From: Nonomuraea fuscirosea
Lineage (GTDB): Bacteria; Actinomycetota; Actinomycetes; Streptosporangiales; Streptosporangiaceae
Length of the DNA: 64,000 nt
Direction: 5' to 3'
NCBI RefSeq assembly: GCF_003001935.1
Contig: NZ_PVNG01000021.1
Location: 186,001 to 250,000, forward strand
Within the stretch, counting starts at the first letter, position 1. Each line of letters opens with the position of its first letter. The notes beneath the pieces are model-generated. The model searched no databases, was not told the origin of the DNA, and was given only the letters and a program-made list of their open reading frames with translations. A program made the position numbers and the translations under genes. Below are positions 1-11,567 of this stretch, piece by piece.

Positions 1-815
1 GACAGGTCCGCCTCGGCCCAGCGGGGCGAGCGGGCGAAGGCGGCGAACATCGTGGTGACCCCGAACATCCAGGTGACCCGGTGCTCACCGATGAGGTCGT
101 AGCACTCGTCCACGTCCCACGACGGCATGATCACCGAGCGGCCGCCCTTGAGGAAGGTCGGCAGCAGGGTCTGGTTCAGAGCCGCGACGTGGAACAGCGG
201 CGCGCTGATCAGCGTCACCTCCTCGCTGGTGACGTCGACGCCGAGGAGCAGGTTGAAGCAGTTCCACACGAGGTTGGCGTGGGTGAGCAGCGCGCCCTTG
301 GGCCGCCCGGTCGTTCCGGAGGTGTAGAGGATGAGCGCCGGGTCGTCCGGCCGCACGGGCGTGTCGATCGGGGTGGGGTCGCCCGCCGCGAGCCAGGTCT
401 CGTAGTGGCTCTCCCCCGGAGCCGGGGCGCCGACGGCGACGAGGTGCGGCGGAGGGACCGGCAGGGCCCGGACCGTCTCGGCGCACTCGGGCGCGTAGAT
501 CAGCACCGTGGCGCCCGAGTGGTCCAGCATGTAGCCGATCTCGGGCGCGGCCAGGCGGAAGTTCAGCGGCACGAAGATCGCCCCGAGCAGGTGCGCGGCG
601 AACATCGTCTCGACGAAGGCGACGTGGTTGCGGCCGAGGTAGGCGACCCGGTCACCGGCCCGCACCCCCGAAGCGCGCAGCCGCGACGCCAGCCGGGTGG
701 TCCGCTCGTGGACCTCCGCGTAGGTGACGGACCGGTCCGCGAGAACGAACGCGGTCCGGTCCGGGGTCATCCGTGCCCGGCGGGCGGGCCAGCCGCCCAG
801 TCCGGCGTTGCGCAT
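1..815 (-). CDS. Acyl-CoA synthetase (AMP-binding), C-terminus cut by window edge
   Basis: Adenylate-forming ligase that would activate a carboxylic acid to its CoA thioester with ATP. The first 271 residues are visible and the reading frame runs off the left edge. The N-terminus reads MRNAGLGGWPARRARMTPD. The family phosphate-binding loop is present as YTSGTTGRPKGALLTH (about residues 165-180), followed by the expected PLFHVAALNQTLLP segment. The ATG at 815 is preceded by AGGAGAG with good spacing. It is the last visible gene of the SDR-amidohydrolase-MaoC unit on this strand, 52 bp after the MaoC stop. Substrate unknown; the neighbours suggest a hydroxylated or unsaturated acid. Confidence 0.9.
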   Translation of the reverse strand, partial: MRNAGLGGWPARRARMTPDRTAFVLADRSVTYAEVHERTTRLASRLRASGVRAGDRVAYLGRNHVAFVETMFAAHLLGAIFVPLNFRLAAPEIGYMLDHSGATVLIYAPECAETVRALPVPPPHLVAVGAPAPGESHYETWLAAGDPTPIDTPVRPDDPALILYTSGTTGRPKGALLTHANLVWNCFNLLLGVDVTSEEVTLISAPLFHVAALNQTLLPTFLKGGRSVIMPSWDVDECYDLIGEHRVTWMFGVTTMFAAFARSPRWAEADL

Positions 816-867: not shown

Positions 868-1326
868 TCAGGCGTAGTGCCGCAGGAGGGCCCGGGCCAC
901 GCAGGCCGGCTTGCCCGACCCTTCGATCTCGACGGTGAAGTCGAGGTGCATCTGGACGCCGTCGCCGGGGACGTCCTCGACCGAGGCGACGACGCCGGCC
1001 AGGCGGATCCTGGCGCCCACCTTGACCGGGGCGGGGAAGCGCACCTTGTCCAGGCCGTAGTTGATGCTCATCTTCACGTCCTGGATGTCCAGCAGCTCGT
1101 TGAACAGCGGGATGACCAGGGCCAGGGTCAGGTAGCCGTGCGCGATCGTGCCGCCGAACGGCCCGGCCGCGGCTCTGCCAGGGTCGACGTGGATCCACTG
1201 GTGGTCGTCGGTGGCGTCGGCGAAGGTGTTCACCCGGTCCTGGGTGATCTCGTGCCAGCCGGTGTGGCCGAGGTCCTTGCCGCTCAGCGCCCTGATCTCA
1301 TCGAGCCCTCGCGCGGTGGTGGTCAT
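868..1326 (-). CDS. MaoC-like (R)-specific enoyl-CoA hydratase
   Basis: 152-residue hot-dog-fold protein of the MaoC dehydratase family, which hydrates 2-enoyl-CoA or dehydrates 3-hydroxyacyl-CoA. The family catalytic block is visible as FADATDDHQWIHVDP (about residues 35-49) with the Asp/His pair, then GPFGGTIAHGYLTLAL. Its length is normal for a single-domain member. The ATG at 1326 overlaps the stop of the upstream amidohydrolase gene by 4 bp (ATGA), so translation is probably coupled. The neighbouring SDR and CoA ligase suggest a beta-oxidation-like step. Confidence 0.92.
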   Translation of the reverse strand: MTTTARGLDEIRALSGKDLGHTGWHEITQDRVNTFADATDDHQWIHVDPGRAAAGPFGGTIAHGYLTLALVIPLFNELLDIQDVKMSINYGLDKVRFPAPVKVGARIRLAGVVASVEDVPGDGVQMHLDFTVEIEGSGKPACVARALLRHYA

Positions 1327-2222
1327 GCCGGTGCCGTCCTCTCCTGGGTGCCGAGCCCGAGCAGGCGTACGGCGTTGTCCTTCAGAATCTTCGGGCGGAC
1401 CTCGGGCTTGATGTCGAGCTTGGCGAAGTCGCCGAGCCAGCGGTCCGGGGTGATCACGGGGTAGTCGGAGCCGAAGAGCACCTTGTCCTTGAGCAGCGTG
1501 TTGGCGTAGCGCACGAGCTGCGGCGGGAAGTACTTCGGCGACCAGCCCGACAGGTCGATGTACACGTACGGCTTGTGGGTGGCCACCGCGAGCGCCTCGT
1601 CCTGCCACGGGAACGACGGATGGGCCAGGATGATCCGCAGTTCGGGGAAGTCCACGGCCACGTCGTCCACCAGCATCGGGTTGCCGTACTTGAGCCGGAT
1701 GCCGCCCCCACCGGGAACGCCGGCGCCGATGCCGGTCTGCCCGGTGTGGAACAGCGCCGGGACGCCCAGCTCCTCGATCGCCTCGTACAGCGGGTAGGCC
1801 ACCGGGTCGTTGGGGGCGATGCCCTGGATGCTCGGGTGGAACTTGAAGCCGCGCACGCCGTGCTCGGCGACCAGCCGCCGCGCCTCGCGCGCACCAGCCC
1901 GGCCCTTCCACGGGTCGACGCTGGCGAACGGGATCAGCACGTCGGCGTGCTCGGCGCAGCTCTGCGCGACCTCCTCGTTGGAGATGCGCGGGTGCCCGGT
2001 GGCGTGCTCGGCGTCCACGGTGAACACCACCGCGGCCATGTTCCGCTCCCGGTAGTACGCGGCCATCTCCGGAATGGCCGGCTGCCGGTGCCCGTGGGCC
2101 TTGAAGTAGTTCTCGGAGGCGCCGAACAGCTCCGGGCTGAGCGAGCCGTGGCCGTCCTTGGAGATCTCGGCGTGGGTGTGCACGTCGATCGCGACCAGGC
2201 CGGCGACGTTCATGGCCGTCAC
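1323..2222 (-). CDS. Amidohydrolase-2 family metal-dependent hydrolase/decarboxylase
   Basis: 299-residue TIM-barrel protein of the amidohydrolase-2 (ACMSD-like) family. The HxH metal motif is at the N-terminus (AIDVHTHAEI, about residues 12-21), a central FKFHPSIQG and LFHTGQTG carry the next His residues, ILAHPSFPW follows, and FGSDYP near residue 258 supplies the conserved Asp. The family contains C-C or C-N hydrolases and non-oxidative decarboxylases of aromatic or keto acids; the sequence does not decide which. It starts 1 bp after the SDR stop and overlaps MaoC, so it belongs to the same operon. Confidence 0.88.
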   Translation of the reverse strand: MTAMNVAGLVAIDVHTHAEISKDGHGSLSPELFGASENYFKAHGHRQPAIPEMAAYYRERNMAAVVFTVDAEHATGHPRISNEEVAQSCAEHADVLIPFASVDPWKGRAGAREARRLVAEHGVRGFKFHPSIQGIAPNDPVAYPLYEAIEELGVPALFHTGQTGIGAGVPGGGGIRLKYGNPMLVDDVAVDFPELRIILAHPSFPWQDEALAVATHKPYVYIDLSGWSPKYFPPQLVRYANTLLKDKVLFGSDYPVITPDRWLGDFAKLDIKPEVRPKILKDNAVRLLGLGTQERTAPA

Positions 2223-2223
2223 G

Positions 2224-3150
2224 TCAGGCTCCCTGGCCGTTCTGGGCGGGGACCTGGGGGGCGGGGATGCCGTACGTCTCCGGTTCGGCGCCGACGCCCG
2301 ACCGCCAGGAGGCGGCGACGGCGTCGGCCGACCATCCGCCGTCGGCGAAGGCGACGGCCTTCTCGGCGGGGTGCGACCACAGGGCGAGGCGGTCGCCGCC
2401 GATCCCGATCGCCTGGCCGCTCACCCCGGCGGAGGCGTCCGAGGCGAGGAAGACGACGAGCCCCGCCACGTCCTCGACGGTGCCCAGCCCCTCGTCCCTG
2501 CGCAGCCAGGCGGGGAACGGCCGGCCGGTGCGCTCGGACTCCTCGATGATCGGCGCGAACGCGGGGATGGTCCTGGTCATCTCCGTGGCCGCCACCGGCA
2601 CGACGGCGTTCACGGTGATGTCCGCCCTGGCCAGTTCCATCGCCCAGGTCCTGGCCATCGCCACGATGCCGGCCTTGGCGGCGGCGTAGTTGGTCTGGCC
2701 GAAGTTCCCGCGCTGGCCCGCCGGTGAGGAGATCAGGATCAGCCGGCCGCCGCTCCCCTGCTCGCGCATCCGGATCGCCGCGGCCCGCGCGCAGGTGAAC
2801 GTGCCGCGCAGGTGCACGTCGATCACCGCGTCGAAGTCGTCGTCCGTCATCTTCCACAGGACCCGGTCGCGCAGGATGCCGGCGTTGGTGACCATCACGT
2901 CCAGCCGGCCGTACTCCTCGACCGCGGCGGCGACCAGCCGGTCGGCCACCTCGGCCGATCCGACCGGGCCGGCGACGCCGTGTGCCCGGCCGCCGGCGCC
3001 GGTGATGGCCGCGGCGGCCCGCGAGGCCGCTTCGGCGTCCACGTCGTTGACGATCACCGCCGCTCCGGCCGCGGCCAGCGCCTCGGCGTACGCGCGGCCG
3101 AGCCCGCGGCCCGCACCGGTGACCACGGCGACTTTGCCGGACAGATCCAT
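2224..3150 (-). CDS. Short-chain dehydrogenase/reductase with C-terminal extension
   Basis: 308-residue NAD(P)-dependent oxidoreductase. The nucleotide motif TGAGRGLG is at residues 12-19, NAG at about 90, and the active site is Ser-Ser plus YAAAK near 150-170. Unlike 250-residue SDRs, it has about 60 further residues after the fold (LALWSHPAEKAVAFADGGWS and beyond), as seen in 3-hydroxyacyl-CoA dehydrogenases that partner MaoC hydratases. I chose ATG 3150 because AGGGGGAA precedes it; an upstream in-frame ATG at 3189 lies inside the promoter. It is the first gene of the SDR-amidohydrolase-MaoC-ligase unit, so a 3-hydroxyacyl-CoA oxidation role is inferred. Confidence 0.9.
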   Translation of the reverse strand: MDLSGKVAVVTGAGRGLGRAYAEALAAAGAAVIVNDVDAEAASRAAAAITGAGGRAHGVAGPVGSAEVADRLVAAAVEEYGRLDVMVTNAGILRDRVLWKMTDDDFDAVIDVHLRGTFTCARAAAIRMREQGSGGRLILISSPAGQRGNFGQTNYAAAKAGIVAMARTWAMELARADITVNAVVPVAATEMTRTIPAFAPIIEESERTGRPFPAWLRRDEGLGTVEDVAGLVVFLASDASAGVSGQAIGIGGDRLALWSHPAEKAVAFADGGWSADAVAASWRSGVGAEPETYGIPAPQVPAQNGQGA

Positions 3151-3278: not shown

Positions 3279-4556
3279 TCAGGTCAGGACCACGTCCTCC
3301 AGCCACCGGCCGACCTGTGCGGCCACGTCGTCGCCGAAGGTGCGGGTGTCCACGTTGTCGGCGTGGATCTCGATCACCGGGAACCCGGCCGCCTCCAGCG
3401 CCCTGGCGGTGAAGTAGCTGCCCCGGGGGTCGTCGGAGACCAGGTGGACCACGCCGTCGATGCCGTGCAGGCGGGCCTCCTTGACGTACCACTCGCTCGA
3501 CCACGGCGGGGTGTAGAGCTGGTCGCTGAAGGCGGCGAACCGCGCCGCCAGCGCCCTCATGGGGTCGTCGCCGTAGCGGAGGTATCCGTCGGCGGCGACG
3601 GCGAGGTACATCGACCAGACGAACACCGCGCCGTACTCCTCCTGGAAACGCTGGTAGAAGCCCATGTCGTACCAGAGGCCGCGGCCGATCCACATCAGCC
3701 GGGCCCGCTCCCCCGGGCACGCGGCGTGACCCGAGTCGACGCGTTCGCGCACCTCCTCGTAGAAGCGCCTGGCGATGTCCCTGGCCCACTCGGTGCCGCG
3801 GTGCCACTGCGGGAGCATGACGCTGGGGATGCTGTCGACCACGCCGAGCGGCGCGGGCCGGGCGCGGGCGATGAGGTCGCGCGCCTTCCTGTTCCACTCC
3901 TCCTGCTCGTTGACCAGGGCCAGCACCTCGCGGAAGCGGGTCTCGCTGAAGCGCCTGCCGGTGGTGGTCTCCAGGAATCTGACCAGGTTCTCCAGCTCGG
4001 CGGTGAGCAGGTCCAGCCGGGCCGGGCCGACGGCCTGCTCCCACCGGTGCGGCATGAGCTCCCACCAGTTGACGGGGACCTCGTTCTCGGCCGCGCTCTC
4101 CAGGGGGTAGAAGATGACGCCGGGCTCACGACCCCAGAGGTCGAAGATCTTGCGGGTGACGTCGCCGGAGGCGTCGCCGACGATGATGTCCGGCCTGGGC
4201 AGGCCGCCCCACGGGCCGGCCTCCGGCTCCGGGTCGAACGCCGCGCCGAGGGTGACCGCGTTGTACTGCTCGGAGTAGTCGGGGTAGCCGCGCCGCCGGA
4301 CCAGCTCCAGGTAGTGCCCTGAGCGCTGCTTGGCGGCCACCAGCGACGCCCACCACTGGCCGACCGCGTACGGGATGTCCATCGTGCGGAAGATCTCGTG
4401 CGGGACGTCCGCGTTGAGCAGGGCGAACGGCTCGCCGGCGGCGACCCGGCGGCGCAGGTCGGCGAACCACTCCCGCTGGTGGGCGCCCGCCTCGGCCGCC
4501 GTGGCCAGCGACTTCACTCCCCGGGAGGTGCTGCCGGGCGTTCTCACATCGGACAT
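3279..4556 (-). CDS. 2-hydroxyacyl-CoA dehydratase/benzoyl-CoA reductase family, large subunit-like
   Basis: 425-residue protein resembling HgdB/BcrB-type subunits, which normally bind a [4Fe-4S] cluster and receive low-potential electrons for reductive dehydration or ring reduction. Family landmarks are recognisable: FRTMDIPYAVGQWW near the N-terminus, DIIVGDASG, and the C-terminal DGVVHLVSDDPRGSY followed by AAGFPVIEIHADN. The odd point is that only one Cys is visible (in HAACPGER). Positions that carry cluster ligands in the family appear as non-Cys residues here (PDYSEQYN, VSDDPRG). ATG 4556 follows AAGGAA and overlaps the partner gene by 13 bp. Family assignment is by pattern; the reaction is unknown. 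Confidence 0.75.
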   Translation of the reverse strand: MSDVRTPGSTSRGVKSLATAAEAGAHQREWFADLRRRVAAGEPFALLNADVPHEIFRTMDIPYAVGQWWASLVAAKQRSGHYLELVRRRGYPDYSEQYNAVTLGAAFDPEPEAGPWGGLPRPDIIVGDASGDVTRKIFDLWGREPGVIFYPLESAAENEVPVNWWELMPHRWEQAVGPARLDLLTAELENLVRFLETTTGRRFSETRFREVLALVNEQEEWNRKARDLIARARPAPLGVVDSIPSVMLPQWHRGTEWARDIARRFYEEVRERVDSGHAACPGERARLMWIGRGLWYDMGFYQRFQEEYGAVFVWSMYLAVAADGYLRYGDDPMRALAARFAAFSDQLYTPPWSSEWYVKEARLHGIDGVVHLVSDDPRGSYFTARALEAAGFPVIEIHADNVDTRTFGDDVAAQVGRWLEDVVLT

Positions 4557-5632
4557 GGGTGTTCCTTCCGCAGAGCGGCCAGGTCGACGCGGCCGTACTC
4601 CTGGCGTTCCAGCAGCACGGCGGGGATGTCCAGCGCCGCGCGCTGCGCGGGGAAGTCCCAGGCCGGCGCCTCGTCCCCGGCCCGGCAGTAGGCGACGAAG
4701 AGCTCGGCCCGGCACCGCCGCACGGCCGCCGCCGCGTACGCGGCGCGCTCGCCCGCCGTGGCCCGGTGCGCGGCCGGGCCGCCGCGGTGGTGGTGCTCGG
4801 CCAGCGCGTCGAGGCCGCCCGCGCCGACCGGCCCCTCCACGGCGAGGTCGCCGAATGAGTGGTCCTCGCCGACGATCACCTGGCCCTCGGACTCGACGGC
4901 CTCGTACACGTGCGGCGTGTCGTGGTCGCTACCGCTCAGGAAGACCCGCCGCCCGGGGTGCTCCTCCAGCCGTCCCGCCTCGGCCAGCAGCCGGCGCAGC
5001 AGCGCGACGTGCTCGGCCACGGGCAGGGCCGCGTTGACGACCGCGAGGAACTGCCGCCCGGTGAGGCGGGCGGGCACGGTCCTGCGCAGCTCGGCGGCGG
5101 CGGCCAGCAGCCGGCGCCGCTCGTCGTGCGCCGCCACCGCGCCGGCCAGGTCGAGGGCGCGGCCGGTCCAGGTCTCCAGCCTGGCGGCGAACTCGCCGAG
5201 CCGGCGGCGGTTGTACCGGGTGGTCGTGCGGTGCGGCAGGTGCCGGAGGTCCACCAGGTACGCCTCGGGCAGTCCCGCGCCCGGCTCCACCCGGCCCAGT
5301 TCGCGCAGCGCGTAGAACAGGCGCAGGGACGCCTCGCAGTCGTGCGAGACCACGACACGATCCAGCTCGCCGAAGGACCCGTCGAGCAGCCGGGTGAGCA
5401 CCGATCGGGCCGCCGGGTCCACCCCGCGGCCCAGGTACCGGTCGCCGGGCGCGGAGCCGGATCCTGGGTCGCCCGTCAGGCGGAGGGCGTGCACCCCGGC
5501 GGCGGTGAGCAGCTCGACCGGCAGGTCGCTCCCGACGTAGCCGACGACCGGAGCCCGGCCGTCCGGCCGGTTCCCCGCGGGTGCGCCGCTCCGGGCGTAG
5601 GCCTCCTCCAGCGCGGCCAGTGCCGTGGGCAC
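4544..5632 (-). CDS. 2-hydroxyacyl-CoA dehydratase family, second subunit-like
   Basis: 362-residue partner of the downstream large subunit. A Rossmann-like start (PVVGYVGSDLPVELLTAAG, about 28-46) matches the GYxxxxVPxEL region of HgdC/BcrC-type subunits. Two family cysteine positions are kept, in VVSHDCEAS (about 100) and FVAYCRAGDE (near 319), while the third, usually in a DDxC motif, reads GEDHSFG. It starts 1 bp after the CoA-transferase stop and overlaps the next gene, so the pair is translationally coupled and probably forms a heterodimer. No activator ATPase gene (BadF/HgdC-activator type) is visible in the window. Confidence 0.72.
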   Translation of the reverse strand: MPTALAALEEAYARSGAPAGNRPDGRAPVVGYVGSDLPVELLTAAGVHALRLTGDPGSGSAPGDRYLGRGVDPAARSVLTRLLDGSFGELDRVVVSHDCEASLRLFYALRELGRVEPGAGLPEAYLVDLRHLPHRTTTRYNRRRLGEFAARLETWTGRALDLAGAVAAHDERRRLLAAAAELRRTVPARLTGRQFLAVVNAALPVAEHVALLRRLLAEAGRLEEHPGRRVFLSGSDHDTPHVYEAVESEGQVIVGEDHSFGDLAVEGPVGAGGLDALAEHHHRGGPAAHRATAGERAAYAAAAVRRCRAELFVAYCRAGDEAPAWDFPAQRAALDIPAVLLERQEYGRVDLAALRKEHPCPM

Positions 5633-5633
5633 G

Positions 5634-6872
5634 TCAGATCACTCCTTCCCCGGCCAGCGCCTTGAGCTCGTCGTCGGAGTAGCCGAGCAGCCCGCCGTAG
5701 ACCTCGGTGTTGTGCTCGCCGAGGCCGGGCGCGGGCCGGTCGAACGCCGTCTCCGAGGCGGAGAAGCGGAGCGGCACCCCGCTCCCGTACAGGTCCGCGC
5801 GGTGGCCGTGGCGCGGATGCGCCAGCGGCACGACCTCCTCGCGCTCCAGCACGAGCGGGTCGCGTACGGCGTCGCCGGGCTCGCGCACCTCGGCGGCGGG
5901 CACGCCGTGCCGGGTCAGCAGGCCGAGGACCGACGCGAGCGGGAGGTCCGCCGCCCACGAGCCCACGAGCTCGTGCAGCTCCCCCGCGTTGGCCACGCGC
6001 GCGTCCCGGGAGGCGAAGCGGGGGTCCTCGGCCAGGTCGTCGCGTCCCATCGCGGCGAACAGGCCGCGGGCAAAGGCGTCGGTGGGGCCGCACAGCGCGA
6101 ACCAGCCGTCCGCGGCCGGGAACGTGCCGAACGGCGCCAGCCGGGGCACGGTCGTCCCCGTGCGCATGGGCAGGCCCAGCTTCTCGTAGGCGTCGAACGG
6201 CTCGCACGCCACCAGCGAGGTGAGCGCCCCCAGCATGGACACGTCCACGTGCTGGCCCCGGCCGGTCGCGTCGGCCCGCAGGACCGCGGCGAGCGTGCCG
6301 ATCACCGCGTACAGCGGCGCGACCAGGTCGCCCACCGGCAGCCCGAAGCGGACCGGCGGCTCGCCTGGCGCGCCCGCGGTCATCATCACGCCGCTGAGCG
6401 CCTGGATGATGGTGTCCATCGCCTTGCCGGAGCCGGGGCCGCCCTGCGCGCCGAAACCGCTGATCGAGGTGCACACGATGCGCGGGTTGATCGCGCCGGC
6501 CCAGTCGTGGCCGATGCCGAGCCGCTCCATGACCCCCGCGCTGTAGTTGTCGATCATGATGTCCGACACCCGGACCAGCCCGGCCAGGACGTCGCGGGCC
6601 TTGGGGTGCTTCAGGTTGAGGGTGACGCTCTGCTTGCCGCGGCCGCGCAGGAGCATCGACACGGACATGTCGTCGTCCTCGCGGCGGGCCGGTGTCAGCC
6701 CGCCGGCGCCGAGGTAAGGGGCGTTGTTGCGGGAGCTGTCGCCGCCGGTCAGCGGGTTCTCCACCTTGATCACGCGGGCGCCGAGCCCGGCGAGCAGCAG
6801 GGTCGCGTACGGTCCCGACAGCGCGGTGGTCAGGTCGATCACCGTGCGGCCGGCGAGCGGGCGCTCAGCCAC
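5634..6872 (-). CDS. CaiB/BaiF-type (class III) CoA transferase
   Basis: 412-residue class III CoA transferase that moves CoA between an acyl-CoA and a free acid. The N-terminus RTVIDLTTALSGPYATLLLA and VIKVENPLTGGDSSRN are typical, and the region around VDVSMLGALTSLVA holds the catalytic Asp. Length matches the family. It overlaps the CapA-like gene by 8 bp upstream and nearly abuts the dehydratase-like pair downstream. CoA transferases commonly feed 2-hydroxyacyl-CoA dehydratases, which supports a joint pathway. Confidence 0.92.
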   Translation of the reverse strand: MAERPLAGRTVIDLTTALSGPYATLLLAGLGARVIKVENPLTGGDSSRNNAPYLGAGGLTPARREDDDMSVSMLLRGRGKQSVTLNLKHPKARDVLAGLVRVSDIMIDNYSAGVMERLGIGHDWAGAINPRIVCTSISGFGAQGGPGSGKAMDTIIQALSGVMMTAGAPGEPPVRFGLPVGDLVAPLYAVIGTLAAVLRADATGRGQHVDVSMLGALTSLVACEPFDAYEKLGLPMRTGTTVPRLAPFGTFPAADGWFALCGPTDAFARGLFAAMGRDDLAEDPRFASRDARVANAGELHELVGSWAADLPLASVLGLLTRHGVPAAEVREPGDAVRDPLVLEREEVVPLAHPRHGHRADLYGSGVPLRFSASETAFDRPAPGLGEHNTEVYGGLLGYSDDELKALAGEGVI

Positions 6873-7986
6873 CCAGCACCACCTCCTCCCCCTCCCAGCG
6901 GAACTCCGTCCGCAGCCCGGCCCGCCGGGTGATCTGCTCGATGTAGGACACGACCCGCCGTCCCTCCTCGTCGTTACCGAGCGGCACCGGGCGGCCGGCG
7001 TCGTCGATCCAGCAGGGCACGAGCCCGGCCGTGACCAGGCCGTCGCGGTCGAAGCGGCACAGCGCGATGGCGGTGTTGCGGCTCTCGGGGTGGAAGGGGT
7101 AGTACGGCATGTCCGGGTCCGGGGCGAAGCCGTACAGTTCCACCCTGCGGCGCGCCCACGCGGCCCGTTCGTCCTCGTCGCCCGCCGCGGGCGTCAGCGC
7201 GTGGGTGACGGTGACGAAGTTGCCCAGCCCGTGGTAGATCGGCCGGCCGCGGTACATCTCGACGCCTCGCATGATGTGGGCGTGGTGGGCGAACACGGCG
7301 TGCGCGCCGGCGTCCACGGCGGCGTGGGCCACGGGCCGCTCGTACATCGCCAGGACGGCGGGCGTGTGCCCGACGCCCTTGTGCAGCGACACCAGCACGA
7401 CGTCGGCCTCGGCGGCCAGGGCCGCCACGTCCGCGGCCATCCGCTCCAGGGACTCGGGGTCGGCGAAGGTGTAGACGGCGGGCGGCCCGCCGGGGCTGGC
7501 GTGGTCGAGTTCGTAGTGGGTGAGCACCTTGACGTACGCGCAGCCCGGTTTGCGGCTGGTCGCCCACGACTCGCGGGGACCGACGCAGTTGTAGCTCAGC
7601 ACGCCGACGCGCAGCCCGTCGCGCTCCACGACGGCGGGGCGGCGGGCCTGGTCGAGGGTCGGTCCGGCGCCGGCGGTGGCCAGCCCGGCCTCGGCCGCGT
7701 ACGTGATCGTGTCGGCCACGCCCTGGTCGCCGGCGTCGTAGACGTGGTTGCCCGCGAGCGTCACCACGTGGAAGCCGGCGTCGGCGACCGCGCGGAGCGC
7801 GGCGGGGTCGGCGGGCGGCGCGGGGACGTCGGTGCTGACCTGGGCGGCGGACGTGCTGTGCGGCACCTCCACGTGGCCGATCACCACGCCGCCCCGGCCC
7901 AGCGTCTCCCGGGTGGGGTCGAAGAAGGACGCGGGATCGGGCTCGTCGACGACCAGGTCGCCGACGGCCATCACCGTGAGGCTCAC
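6865..7986 (-). CDS. CapA-family metallophosphatase-like protein
   Basis: 373-residue protein of the CapA (poly-gamma-glutamate synthesis) family. Calcineurin-like signatures are visible: MAVGDLVV at the start, [12 protein letters not shown] near 95, [12 protein letters not shown] near 200, and [24 protein letters not shown] near 240. No signal peptide is seen, so it is probably cytoplasmic, unlike CapA itself. GTG 7986 overlaps the ATPase stop (GTGA). Similar stand-alone proteins occur inside catabolic operons, where they may hydrolyse amide or phosphate bonds; the function here is unknown. Confidence 0.85.
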
Positions 7987-8789
7987 GACGTGCTCTCCTC
8001 TACAGGGGTCTTTCCGGCCTGGCCGGAGAAGCGCGACAGGAAGGCGCGCAGGCGGGGCGAGGCGGGGTCGTCGAAGATCTCCTCGGGGGTGCCGGTCGCG
8101 GCCACCCGGCCCTCCTCCATGAAGACGCAGCGATCGGCCACCTCGCGGGCGAAGCTCATCTCGTGCGTCACGATGATCATGGTCATGCCGCCGCGGGCCA
8201 GGTCGAGCACCACGCTCAGCACCTCGTCCACCAGCTCGGGGTCCAGGGCGCTGGTGGGCTCGTCGAACAGCATGATCCGCGGATTGGTGGCCAGGGCCCT
8301 GGCGATGGCGACGCGCTGCTGCTGGCCGCCGGAGAGCATCCGGGGGTGGGCGTCCGCCTTGCCGGCCAGCCCCACCCGTTCCAGCAGCCGCAGCGCCTCC
8401 TCGCGCGCCTCCGCCGGCGAGCGGCCGTGCACCGCGACCTGCGCCTCGACCACGTTGCGCAGCACGCTCCAGTGCGCGAACAGGTTGAACTGCTGGAAGA
8501 CCATGCCCATGCGGCCGCGCTGGGCGGCCACCCGGCGGTCCGGCAGGGGACGCAGGTGGCCCCGCTGCAGTTCGTAGCCGAGCAGCTCCCCGTCGAGGTA
8601 CATGGCCCCGCCGTCGATGCTCTCCAGCTGGTGGACGCAGCGGACCAGGGTGGACTTGCCCGATCCGGACGGGCCGATGACGGTGACCACCTCGCCCTCG
8701 TGCACGTCCAGGTCCACGCCGTCGAGGGCCTGGTGGTCACCGAACCGCTTGCGCACGCCACGGACGCGCAGGACGGGCGTGCCGCTCAC
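7983..8789 (-). CDS. Polar amino-acid ABC transporter ATP-binding protein
   Basis: 268-residue ABC ATPase. Walker [10 protein letters not shown] is near residue 37, the Q-loop MVFQQFNLF near 95, signature LSGGQQQR near 150, Walker [13 protein letters not shown] near 172, and the switch His in VTHEMSF. This fits the HisP/GlnQ (PAAT) class. GTG 8789 overlaps the permease stop by 4 bp (GTGA), and its own stop overlaps the CapA-like start in the same way. Confidence 0.95.
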
Positions 8790-9631
8790 CGCTGCCCCCT
8801 TCCGAAGTGCCGCTCCAGGCGCCGCTGGCCGAGCGACAGCACGGTGACCACCGCCAGGTACCAGGCGCAGGCCACGATCAGCAGCGGCACGATCTCGTAG
8901 GTCCTGTTGTAGATCACCTGCACCGCGTACAGCAGGTCGGCCATCGCGATCACGCTGACCAGGGAGGTGCCCTTGAGCAGGCTGATGAACTGGCTGCCGG
9001 TGGGCGGGACGATCACCCGCATCGCCTGCGGGAGCACGACCTTGACGAAGCTCTGCCCGGCGGTGAAGCCCATCGCGCGGGCCGCGTCGCGCTGCCCGCC
9101 GTCCACGGCCAGGATGCCGGCCCTGACGATCTCGGCCATGTACGCGGCCTCGTGCAGGGTGAGCCCGATGACGGCGGCGGTCAGCGAGCTGATCACGGAG
9201 TTGGTCGGCCACGAGACGAAGGTCGGGCCGAACGGCACGCCCAGCGAGACGCGCGGCAGCAGGTAGCCGAGGTTGAACCAGAAGATGAGCTGGACCAGGG
9301 GCGGGACGCCGCGGAAGACCGCGATGTAAACGCCGCAGGCCCAGGCCATCGGCGCGAAGCCGCTCAGCCTGCCCGCCGCGAGGAGCACCCCGAGCGCGCT
9401 GCCCAGCACCATCCCGATGACGGTGAGCAGCAGCGACATGCCGAGGCCGCGCAGGATGTTCGGGTCGAACAGGTATCTGCCGGCCACCGGCCATTCGAAC
9501 CGCGGGTTGGTGAGGAGGAACCAGGCGAACTGCGCGGCGAGCACGAGCAGCAGGGCTCCGGCGGCCCAGCGCAGCGGGCGGACGCGGGGGCGGGCCGAGG
9601 CGACGTCCACGACGTGGGGCGGGGCGCTCAC
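8786..9631 (-). CDS. Polar amino-acid ABC transporter permease
   Basis: 281-residue membrane protein of the His/Glu/Gln/Arg permease class, with an N-terminal membrane segment ([18 protein letters not shown]) and several more. The EAA loop is visible as [24 protein letters not shown] (about 180-203). A single permease gene suggests a homodimeric translocator. GTG 9631 overlaps the binding-protein stop (GTGA). Confidence 0.94.
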
Positions 9632-10521
9632 GGCGTCGCCGCGGTGTTCATCCTGGGCTCCTCCACCGCCACGTTCTGGAGCCCGTACTTGTCCATGATC
9701 TTCTTGTACTCGCCGCTGGCGAAGATCTCCTTGAACGCGTCGAGCATGACCGGGCCGAGACCGCCGGACTTGGGCACGAGCATGGCCAGCTGGTCGACGC
9801 CGGCGCCCTGCTCGTCGGTCTGCGTGACGTAGGTGAAGGCGTCCTTCTCCTTGCCCAGCACGTCGAGGGCCGCGCTCTCGGTCATGCCGGCCGCGTCGGC
9901 GCGGCCGGACTTGGCGGCGAGGATGGTGCCGTTCGTGTCGGCCAGGCCGACGAAGTCGATGCCCGCCTTCCCCTGCTTGGCGCACCACTCGGTGAGGCGC
10001 TTGACCTGGTCCTCCACGATGCTGCCCGCGGTGCCGGCGACGCGCTTGCCGCACAGGTCGGCCGAGCTCTTGACGGCCGCGGAGCCGGCCTTGGGGATCA
10101 GGTAGGAGGTGCGGGTGACCATCCACACGATCGCGTCGAACTGCTTCTCGCGCTCGGCGGTGTCCTTGACCGGCCCGTTGAAGGCGTCGTACCGGGAGGC
10201 GAGCATGCCGGACAGCGCCGCGGGCAGGCCGTTGACGATCGAGATCTCGGTGCGGACTCCGAGCGCCTTGCCGAGGGCGTCCTGCAGCTCCTTGTCGATG
10301 CCGGTGACGGTCTTGCCGTCGTTGCCGACGATCCGGTAGGGCGGGTGGGAATCCCCGGCAAATCGGATGACGCCCGTTTCCTTGATGCCGTCCGGCAGGG
10401 CGTCGTACAGAGCCGTCGCGCCGGCCGGCCGCTGGCTTCCTCCGGTGTCTCCGCCGCACGCCGCGGCGCCGGCGAGAGTCGAAACCGCCACACCCGCGAG
10501 AATGGTCCTGGGGAATCTCAT
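9628..10521 (-). CDS. ABC transporter substrate-binding lipoprotein (SBP_bac_3)
   Basis: 297-residue extracytoplasmic solute receptor. The signal peptide [18 protein letters not shown] leads to a Cys at about residue 23 in AGAAACGG, a slightly weak lipobox. The body has the SBP_bac_3 pattern ([29 protein letters not shown]). I chose ATG 10521 because AAGGA precedes it and the signal peptide then begins correctly; the longer ORF starts in the promoter. First gene of the importer operon; the ligand is probably amino-acid-like or a small carboxylate. Confidence 0.93.
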
Positions 10522-10643: not shown

Positions 10644-11567
10644 TCAGGTGAGCGTGAGGGTGGAGCCGGTGCGGTGGTGGGCGACCAGCCCGGCCAGCGC
10701 CGGCTCGAACTCCGCGACGATCTGCTTGACCCGGAACTCGGCGAGCGGCCCGAGGGTGTCGTAGATCTCCACGAACAGGTCCCTGGCCGCGGCGCGCGGC
10801 CAGTCGGCGGGCAGCAGCTCCGCAGGCAGGTCGGGGTCGTGGTTGGGGAAGGTCCGCCAGGTGTCCATGATCCCCGAGCGCGCGACCAGCGCCTCGGACG
10901 CGCCGACCGTGCCCCTGCGGACGCGGTCCAGGAGCGGCGCGTACCGGGTCACGAACTCCTCGTAGGTACGCCGGAGCCGGTCGAAGTCCCAGGCCTCCTG
11001 CGGGGCGCGCATGCCCGGAAGGTCCAGGGCCTCGGCGCGGAAGACCGTGGCCATGGGGACCTCGAGCTCGGTGAGCACCGCCGCCGCGCTGCCGGCGTCG
11101 GCCGTGGGCGAGACCCAGAGCCCGTCGTAGAGCGGGGCGAAGCCGAGCCAGCGCAGCCGCGCGCGCAGCGCGTGACGCAGGTCGCGCTGCTCCTCGGAGA
11201 CGGAGAACGCCGCCATCACCCAGGTGCGGTCCCACGCGCCGCGCTCCAGGCCGAAGGACATGATCCGCTGCCTGCCCTCCAGCATCACCGCGGCGGCGCG
11301 GTCCGTCAGCCGGTAGGAGGTGCGCCGCCCGGTCTTCGACGACTCCAGCAGGTTCCGTTTGGTCAGGCGGCTGAGCGCGGCCCGCGCCGCGACGGCGGAG
11401 ACCCCGAACTCCTCGGTCAGCCGCACCAGGGCCGCGGACGGCAGCCGCTCGGGGCGGCTGATCCAGTAGTCGCCGAGTAGCGTGGTGATCAGGTGCTGCG
11501 GGGGCGCGCCCACCTGGAAGCGCGGAAAGTCGACGTCCCCTGCCTCGGACAGCTCACGGTCATTCAC
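10644..11567 (-). CDS. PaaX-family transcriptional repressor
   Basis: 307-residue regulator with an N-terminal winged helix (about 24-85: LITTLLGDYW, FGVSAVAARAALSRLTKRNLLES) and the PaaX central and C-terminal domains (WDRTWVMAAFSVSEEQRDLR; FRTFPNHDPDLPAELLP). PaaX binds phenylacetyl-CoA in E. coli and releases catabolic operons; the effector here is unknown but probably an acyl-CoA made by the neighbouring enzymes. It lies directly upstream of the importer operon on the same strand. GTG 11567 has no Shine-Dalgarno but sits 6 nt after TATACT, so the mRNA is probably leaderless. Confidence 0.88.
   Translation of the reverse strand: MNDRELSEAGDVDFPRFQVGAPPQHLITTLLGDYWISRPERLPSAALVRLTEEFGVSAVAARAALSRLTKRNLLESSKTGRRTSYRLTDRAAAVMLEGRQRIMSFGLERGAWDRTWVMAAFSVSEEQRDLRHALRARLRWLGFAPLYDGLWVSPTADAGSAAAVLTELEVPMATVFRAEALDLPGMRAPQEAWDFDRLRRTYEEFVTRYAPLLDRVRRGTVGASEALVARSGIMDTWRTFPNHDPDLPAELLPADWPRAAARDLFVEIYDTLGPLAEFRVKQIVAEFEPALAGLVAHHRTGSTLTLT

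Follow-up and report, generated by a model that had tools for sequence, protein, structure and literature searches.

The HGD-D fold family (Pfam PF06050) includes two functional families, the 2-hydroxyacyl-coenzyme A (CoA) dehydratases and the class I benzoyl-CoA reductases, and enzymes with this fold serve as model systems for ATP-driven radical reactions, which are bound to an anaerobic way of life. The FldA/FldBC/FldI phenyllactate dehydratase system combines a family III CoA-transferase with a two-subunit HGD-D protein and has a link to cinnamoyl-CoA chemistry. Solved structures represent both the class I benzoyl-CoA reductases BzdNO and MbdON (PDB 8s02, 9g87) and the two-subunit (R)-2-hydroxyisocaproyl-CoA dehydratase HadBC (PDB 3o3m/3o3n/3o3o). 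HadBC has Cys-ligated [4Fe-4S] clusters together with an activator, and the active-site cluster of its α subunit has Cys on three of its four irons (PMC11574389).

Here these systems are compared with a gene pair at 3279-5632 of a 64,000-nucleotide stretch of Nonomuraea fuscirosea DNA (contig NZ_PVNG01000021.1, positions 186,001 to 250,000), the whole of which is called the window. An annotation made from the letters of the sequence (the original prediction) had described two coupled genes of the HgdB/HgdC or BcrB/BcrC type that had lost most of their Fe-S Cys residues and lacked an activator; it had further proposed a new chemistry and tolerance of oxygen, which the pair may have. The two genes, which are paralogous and encoded together on the minus strand, are indeed coupled by an overlap of 13 bases (Table 1). 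Tentatively, the pair is read as a heterodimeric acyl-CoA enzyme derived from the activator-dependent [4Fe-4S] dehydratases/reductases, which would have lost both clusters and the activator and would now carry out a non-radical step on an arylpropanoyl-CoA, feeding a cou-type path. The part of this reading that can be taken from the sequences themselves comprises the loss of ligands across a cluster-free clade, the conservation of acidic residues where the small subunit would have two of its ligands, the lack of an activator match, purifying selection, and a conserved neighbourhood.

The predicted fold agrees with the earlier description. Both proteins score far above the PF06050 cut-off of 28.4 bits (scores in Table 1), and no other protein of the 12.2-Mb genome matches this model. 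Confident AlphaFold2 models were obtained for both, with a mean predicted local distance difference test (pLDDT) of 90.9 for the small subunit and 86.4 for the large one. The small-subunit model matches BzdN with a Z of 39.2 (2.6 Å over 354 residues) and HadC with a Z of 36.0, and BzdN is also its best match by sequence; the large-subunit model matches HadB with a Z of 40.7 (2.2 Å over 385 residues) and BzdO with a Z of 39.3, and MbdO is another close match. Fold matches below Z 8, such as arylmalonate decarboxylase, were disregarded as weak. By this fold match the α subunit of HadBC is the counterpart of the large subunit. However, when the pair was searched with the NCBIfam models for class I benzoyl-CoA reductases, all scores fell below the cut-offs, most of them far below (bzdO, 59.8 versus 448.6; bzdN, 24.2 versus 453.8; BcrC, 22.9 versus 421.15), and the model for the double-cubane cluster protein, NF040772, likewise gave only 27.5 and 31.7 bits versus 350. 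Unlike HadBC and BzdNO/MbdON, the pair has neither a set of cluster ligands nor an activator match in its genome. The pair thus belongs to the HGD-D fold family, but it shows neither the cofactor features nor the activator features that were tested for the two functional families. No description of a family of cluster-free HGD-D pairs was found among the open-access PMC papers searched, and the main text of a paper on a piperine cluster (PMC12753220) contains none of the terms "2-hydroxyglutaryl", "dehydratase" or "CoA transferase".

The large subunit contains a single Cys, C280, as had been noted before, and this residue lies off the ligand positions. Alignment of 88 distinct large-subunit rows (94 before the removal of duplicates, with L016, L052 and L063 included, and with fragment L021 and the reference rows L025, L032, L033, L035 and L036 excluded) shows that 84 carry none of the three ligand Cys and four carry all of them. 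With 84 of 88 rows devoid of any of the three, the loss is beyond chance. At the site where the Cys-keeping relatives (L118, L130, L144 and L145) have their third Cys, the loop of the window protein is four residues shorter. In four Nocardia rows a Cys directly precedes the second ligand position; the other cluster-free rows have no Cys within eight alignment columns of any ligand position. A full set of three Cys in shifted positions, which was looked for by alignment, is absent.

In the small subunit, which has four Cys (99, 307, 316 and 360), the ligand Cys of the solved HadC and BzdN face D72, C99 and D320 in profile alignments. Only one of the two ligands formerly assigned to this subunit stands: C99, in the HDCE motif, occupies the second position, and C316, in the AYCR motif, lies out of register, as the third position comes four residues after it, and only 4 of 82 distinct small-subunit rows have a Cys there. 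The EDHS site (D257-H258), which had been taken as the third position, is also off the ligand positions, and its D and H are family residues, each present in 80 of the 82 rows. Consequently, of the six ligand positions of the pair a single one still holds Cys (none of three in the large subunit, one of three in the small); the loss of Fe-S ligands that had been predicted is real, and it is more extensive than was claimed. Conservation over the 82 rows (taken without L023, L106 and L108, whose hits were bad or short, without L113 and L118, in which the small subunit is absent or cut, and without L114, in which the small gene is on the other strand) is 79 for D72, 77 for D98, 81 for D320 and 67 for C99. 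Position 99 is instead Ser in 11 rows, Thr in two, Arg in one and Pro in one, and C307 is present in 54 rows. Because the first and third positions of the small subunit are conserved Asp residues and C99 is replaced in 15 of 82 rows, a classical [4Fe-4S] cluster seems unlikely in either subunit of the window pair.

A profile search of the whole N. fuscirosea genome with the activator model TIGR00241 gave no match, which bears out the prediction that an activator is missing and covers the DNA just outside the window as well. The eight matches to PF01869 all lie on contigs other than that of the pair, and the four above the cut-off resemble N-acetylglucosamine kinases, scoring 54-75 bits versus that model's cut-off of 370. 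Thus, an activator elsewhere in the genome was rejected. The same search found TIGR00241 above its cut-off in all four genomes whose large subunit keeps the three Cys (the CCC rows), whereas it was absent above the cut-off from 34 of 35 cluster-free genomes searched, two of which hold weaker matches below it. These 35 include two, G058 and G1097, that are probably the same organism, and were taken without the genome of L128. The pair is under purifying selection: in six pairwise comparisons, the ratio of non-synonymous to synonymous substitution (dN/dS) was 0.12-0.25 for the large subunit and 0.25-0.45 for the small one. A decaying pseudogene was rejected on the basis of these values.

Relatives were sought in a species-level scan (one genome per species), which revealed 351 places encoding large-subunit relatives, the best 80 of which were read. 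Of these 80, 77 bear actinobacterial names (Nonomuraea, Microbispora, Amycolatopsis, Pseudonocardia, Streptomyces, Nocardia, Rhodococcus and others), two belong to the Chloroflexi, and one is a Bacillota bin; homologous pairs lacking the cysteines, which the original prediction had suggested looking for, thus occur in many other actinobacteria, presumably aerobic ones. Among the nearest 98 genomes, close relatives are present in 10, with the window's own counted. The CCC rows are the bins L118 and L130 (58 and 54% identical) and L144 and L145. In L130, L144 and L145, none of the small-subunit ligand positions holds Cys (D/S/D, E/T/D and D/T/E, respectively), and just the end of a small subunit is visible in L118. 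In a tree of 43 rows, the four CCC rows group together (support 89/97) beside the cluster-free clade (85/83), and both are set apart from ten ordinary HGD-D rows (100/100). To judge from these sequences, the CCC bins, with Cys in the large subunit, none in the small subunit where it is complete, and activators present, are likely an intermediate of a stepwise loss. The ligands of the small subunit were probably lost first, a state kept in L130, L144 and L145, followed by those of the large subunit. Since all but one of 84 cluster-free rows (duplicates included) have Asp at position 98, and the three CCC small subunits have Ser, D98 appears together with the loss of the large-subunit cluster. 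Loss from the small and then the large subunit would be the simplest reading, and the loss perhaps happened twice.

It is also possible, if rather doubtful, that the whole course of events went further: by stepwise loss of clusters, a radical Fe-S family may have given rise to a non-redox lyase that is compatible with oxygen and needs no activator, and whose two former ligand Cys are now near-invariant Asp that would form a carboxylate/divalent-metal site, and which would have spread across the actinobacteria for phenylpropanoid breakdown. A widespread descendant without cofactor ligands, together with living intermediates that have Cys in one subunit, makes the move of this fold to non-radical chemistry in air testable. 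There is also a practical side, as databases may label about 350 genes from the species-level scan as dehydratase or benzoyl-CoA reductase, and most of those read cannot react in the known way.

The pair lies within a longer minus-strand array, in the order PaaX-type regulator, SBP_bac_3 binding protein, permease, ATPase, CapA-like protein, CaiB/BaiF CoA-transferase, small subunit and large subunit, followed by an SDR dehydrogenase, an Amidohydro_2 protein, a MaoC hydratase and an acyl-CoA synthetase. The genes from the binding protein through the large subunit are tightly packed, neighbours overlapping or lying one base apart. The best solved chain for the CoA-transferase is a subunit of benzylsuccinate CoA-transferase (7e-52), practically tied with a CAIB/BAIF protein (1e-51). 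The permease of the related locus in Rhodococcus jostii (L122) has a HEQRo_perm_3TM match above the cut-off. Across 81 loci (the window and 80 relatives), tblastn searches, in which the best match anywhere in a locus was counted and some matches are paralogues, found the CoA-transferase in 80, the CapA-like protein in 69, the PaaX-type regulator in 67 and SBP_bac_3 in 59.

Table 1. Features of the gene pair and its neighbourhood, in window coordinates
Feature	Coordinates	Strand	Remarks
Acyl-CoA synthetase, cut by window end	1..770	-	NCBIfam acyl-CoA ligase models, below cut-offs
MaoC hydratase (cou-type)	868..1326	-	PF01575; 55% identical to R. jostii homologue
Amidohydro_2 protein (CouO-like)	1323..2222	-	PF04909 197.1 bits; 66% identical to R. 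jostii homologue
SDR dehydrogenase (cou-type)	2224..3150	-	PF00106; 64% identical to R. jostii block protein
Large subunit, HadB/BzdO-like, 425 amino acids, without ligand Cys	3279..4556	-	ATG start; PF06050 147.4 bits
Shortened loop V373-G379, site of third Cys in Cys-keeping relatives	3420..3440	-	Four-residue deletion versus L118, L130, L144, L145
Codon of G131, second ligand position (large)	4164..4166	-	Ligand columns of alignment
Codon of E96, first ligand position (large)	4269..4271	-	Ligand columns of alignment
Small subunit, BzdN/HadC-like, 362 amino acids	4544..5632	-	GTG start; PF06050 106.9 bits
Codon of D320, third ligand position (small)	4673..4675	-	Profile alignment
Codons of D98-C99 (C99, second ligand position, small)	5336..5341	-	Profile alignment
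Codon of D72, first ligand position (small)	5417..5419	-	Profile alignment
Family III (CaiB/BaiF) CoA-transferase	5634..6872	-	PF02515 349.5 bits
CapA-like (PGA_cap) protein	6865..7986	-	PF09587 179.6 bits
ABC transporter ATPase, amino-acid type	7983..8789	-	67% identical to L122 ATPase
ABC transporter permease, amino-acid type	8786..9631	-	66% identical to L122 permease
Solute-binding protein, SBP_bac_3	9628..10521	-	PF00497 52.3 bits; start chosen
PaaX-type regulator	10644..11567	-	PF07848, PF20803, PF08223

The genes downstream of the pair resemble those of the cou pathway of R. jostii RHA1, in which p-hydroxycinnamates are degraded via CoA thioesters and the amidohydrolase CouO acts last (PMC4737184). 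Homologues of the SDR, amidohydrolase and MaoC genes stand in one block of an R. jostii genome, in the same order as in the window; by gene likeness this block resembles a cou block. However, the genome searched is that of a strain other than RHA1, the cou-like block and the pair are on different contigs, and the locus of the pair (L122) has no CouO-like match. The same genome (G490) also encodes two ordinary HGD-D pairs that have ligand Cys in both subunits and a TIGR00241-type activator beside each (L148, 6208-9736; L149, 8852-12363). Over the 81 loci, with the window counted, a CouO-like gene (at least 60% identity) is found in 22 and at least two cou-type genes in 24. The N. fuscirosea genome contains two CouO-like genes at this identity, which predicts about 0.3 over the 1.62 Mb read; the 22 loci thus amount to about 80 times the rough one-genome rate, a figure that is a ratio and not a probability, as the loci are related. 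The CouO-like loci come from nine genera and show several gene orders, with the genes on either side and strand.

From this setting the following course can be proposed. The ABC importer would bring in a polar, probably aromatic, acid, which the CaiB/BaiF protein would load onto CoA. The pair would then bind this thioester where the old active site lies in the cleft, and would carry out a non-radical acid-base or metal-assisted step, and the product would enter a cou-type β-oxidative path made up of the MaoC, SDR and amidohydrolase proteins. Conserved Asp residues where ligands once were point to catalysis by a metal or by general acid-base chemistry; D72, D98 and D320 of the small subunit may serve as a general acid/base or as a divalent-metal site. 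Most likely, an arylpropanoyl-CoA would undergo an elimination or, in reverse, an addition, to judge from the pairing of a CoA-transferase with an HGD-D protein that is known from phenyllactate dehydration, and from the cou-type neighbours. As in FldA/FldBC/FldI, a CoA-transferase gene stands beside the two-subunit HGD-D protein in the window, but the genome has no activator match and the pair has no ligand set. A plain FldBC-like aryllactate dehydratase was not adopted, because there is no cofactor here for radical chemistry. The pair may instead do gentler chemistry on plant-type aromatic acids, and it is a candidate for an unknown step in aromatic acid breakdown.

Several points weigh against a cluster-free, activator-free enzyme of the cou type. 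R. jostii, an actinobacterium usually grown in air, has a cluster-free pair (L122) together with two activators, each of which adjoins another HGD-D pair with all ligand Cys. Two cou-type genes were not seen in the stretch read at 57 of the 81 loci, and thus some of them may lack the link to phenylpropanoids. The relative L146 lacks the three ligand Cys in its large subunit and has Ala at D72 and Thr at D98 in its small one, and it lies on a long branch outside both the CCC group and the cluster-free clade; with so deep a branch also lacking these Cys, the order and number of losses are uncertain. Moreover, the two forks between the CCC group and the cluster-free clade both stay below the strong-support mark of the tool. 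That D72, D98 and D320 would meet in space is suggested by the fold match. Finally, α-hydroxyacyl-CoA dehydration as done by the parent family is difficult when no radical is available, which calls for a different reaction or for an activated substrate; a β-hydroxy, β-amino or otherwise activated substrate would be more likely than an α-hydroxy one.

The scarcity of cou-type genes at those 57 loci would be explained if the pair acted on a non-aromatic polar carboxylate and the cou-type genes in the window were there by chance or belonged to a separate operon. The transporters found among the neighbours of relatives (MFS, SBP_bac_8 and SBP_bac_5, and a TRAP-like set seen by eye near L144) fit such a substrate, and the enrichment of CouO-like genes, over nine genera and in several gene orders, argues against it, within the limit that the loci are related; this explanation is possible but seems rather unlikely. 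A non-catalytic role can also be considered, in which the acyl-CoA cleft would have been kept for a CoA-ester sensor, a carrier or a partner of the CoA-transferase. The old catalytic ligands are all gone from the large subunit, and a CoA-transferase homologue accompanies the pair at nearly every locus; however, the many invariant polar residues in both subunits, the purifying selection and the catabolic look of the operon make such a role unlikely.

Two further explanations keep a cofactor in the pair. One cluster or iron site might remain, held by non-Cys ligands or by Cys off the classical positions, and the pair would then be a true dehydratase. The frequent retention of C99 and C307 in the small subunit is consistent with such a site, and Asp is able to ligate iron. 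However, some members have Ser, Thr, Arg or Pro at position 99, the large subunit lacks the ligand set and has a shortened third-Cys loop, and nearly all of the cluster-free genomes are without an activator above the cut-off, all of which renders a residual site improbable. Alternatively, another cofactor, such as a flavin, could have replaced the clusters in a redox enzyme. Some enzymes of the family also carry flavin (PMC11574389), and the genes near relatives include some for SDR and cytochrome P450 proteins. These neighbours were surveyed as 129 proteins from 36 loci, out of 307 candidates, and the 25 most frequent of their 76 families include no ferredoxin or flavoprotein family, which, with crude gene calls, is weak evidence against a replacement that in any event appears distinctly improbable. 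A cluster-free acyl-CoA enzyme, acting without a radical, remains the preferred reading, if a tentative one.

Some features of these loci stand apart from this question. The CapA-like protein (6865-7986), placed between the ABC importer and the CoA-transferase, is in an odd setting for a capsule-type family. It matches the NCBIfam model for the MslH epimerase weakly (99.3 versus a cut-off of 700); MslH is described as a metal-dependent acid/base epimerase (PMC10406935). A stereochemical role of the CapA-like protein is possible. A single open frame spans both subunits, through natural fusion or read-through, in L130 (8741-11266), L022 (475-2775) and L023 (34-2466). Look-alikes of uroporphyrinogen-decarboxylase-type methyltransferases, recognized by eye, are found near the Cys-bearing relatives L144 (6446-7585) and L145 (12667-13755). 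Hydrolases of the S15 family (PepX-type) recur near the module (L071, 12803-14566; L146, 3022-4773; L118, 6839-7579), and the form in which the substrate comes in may be an ester or amide.

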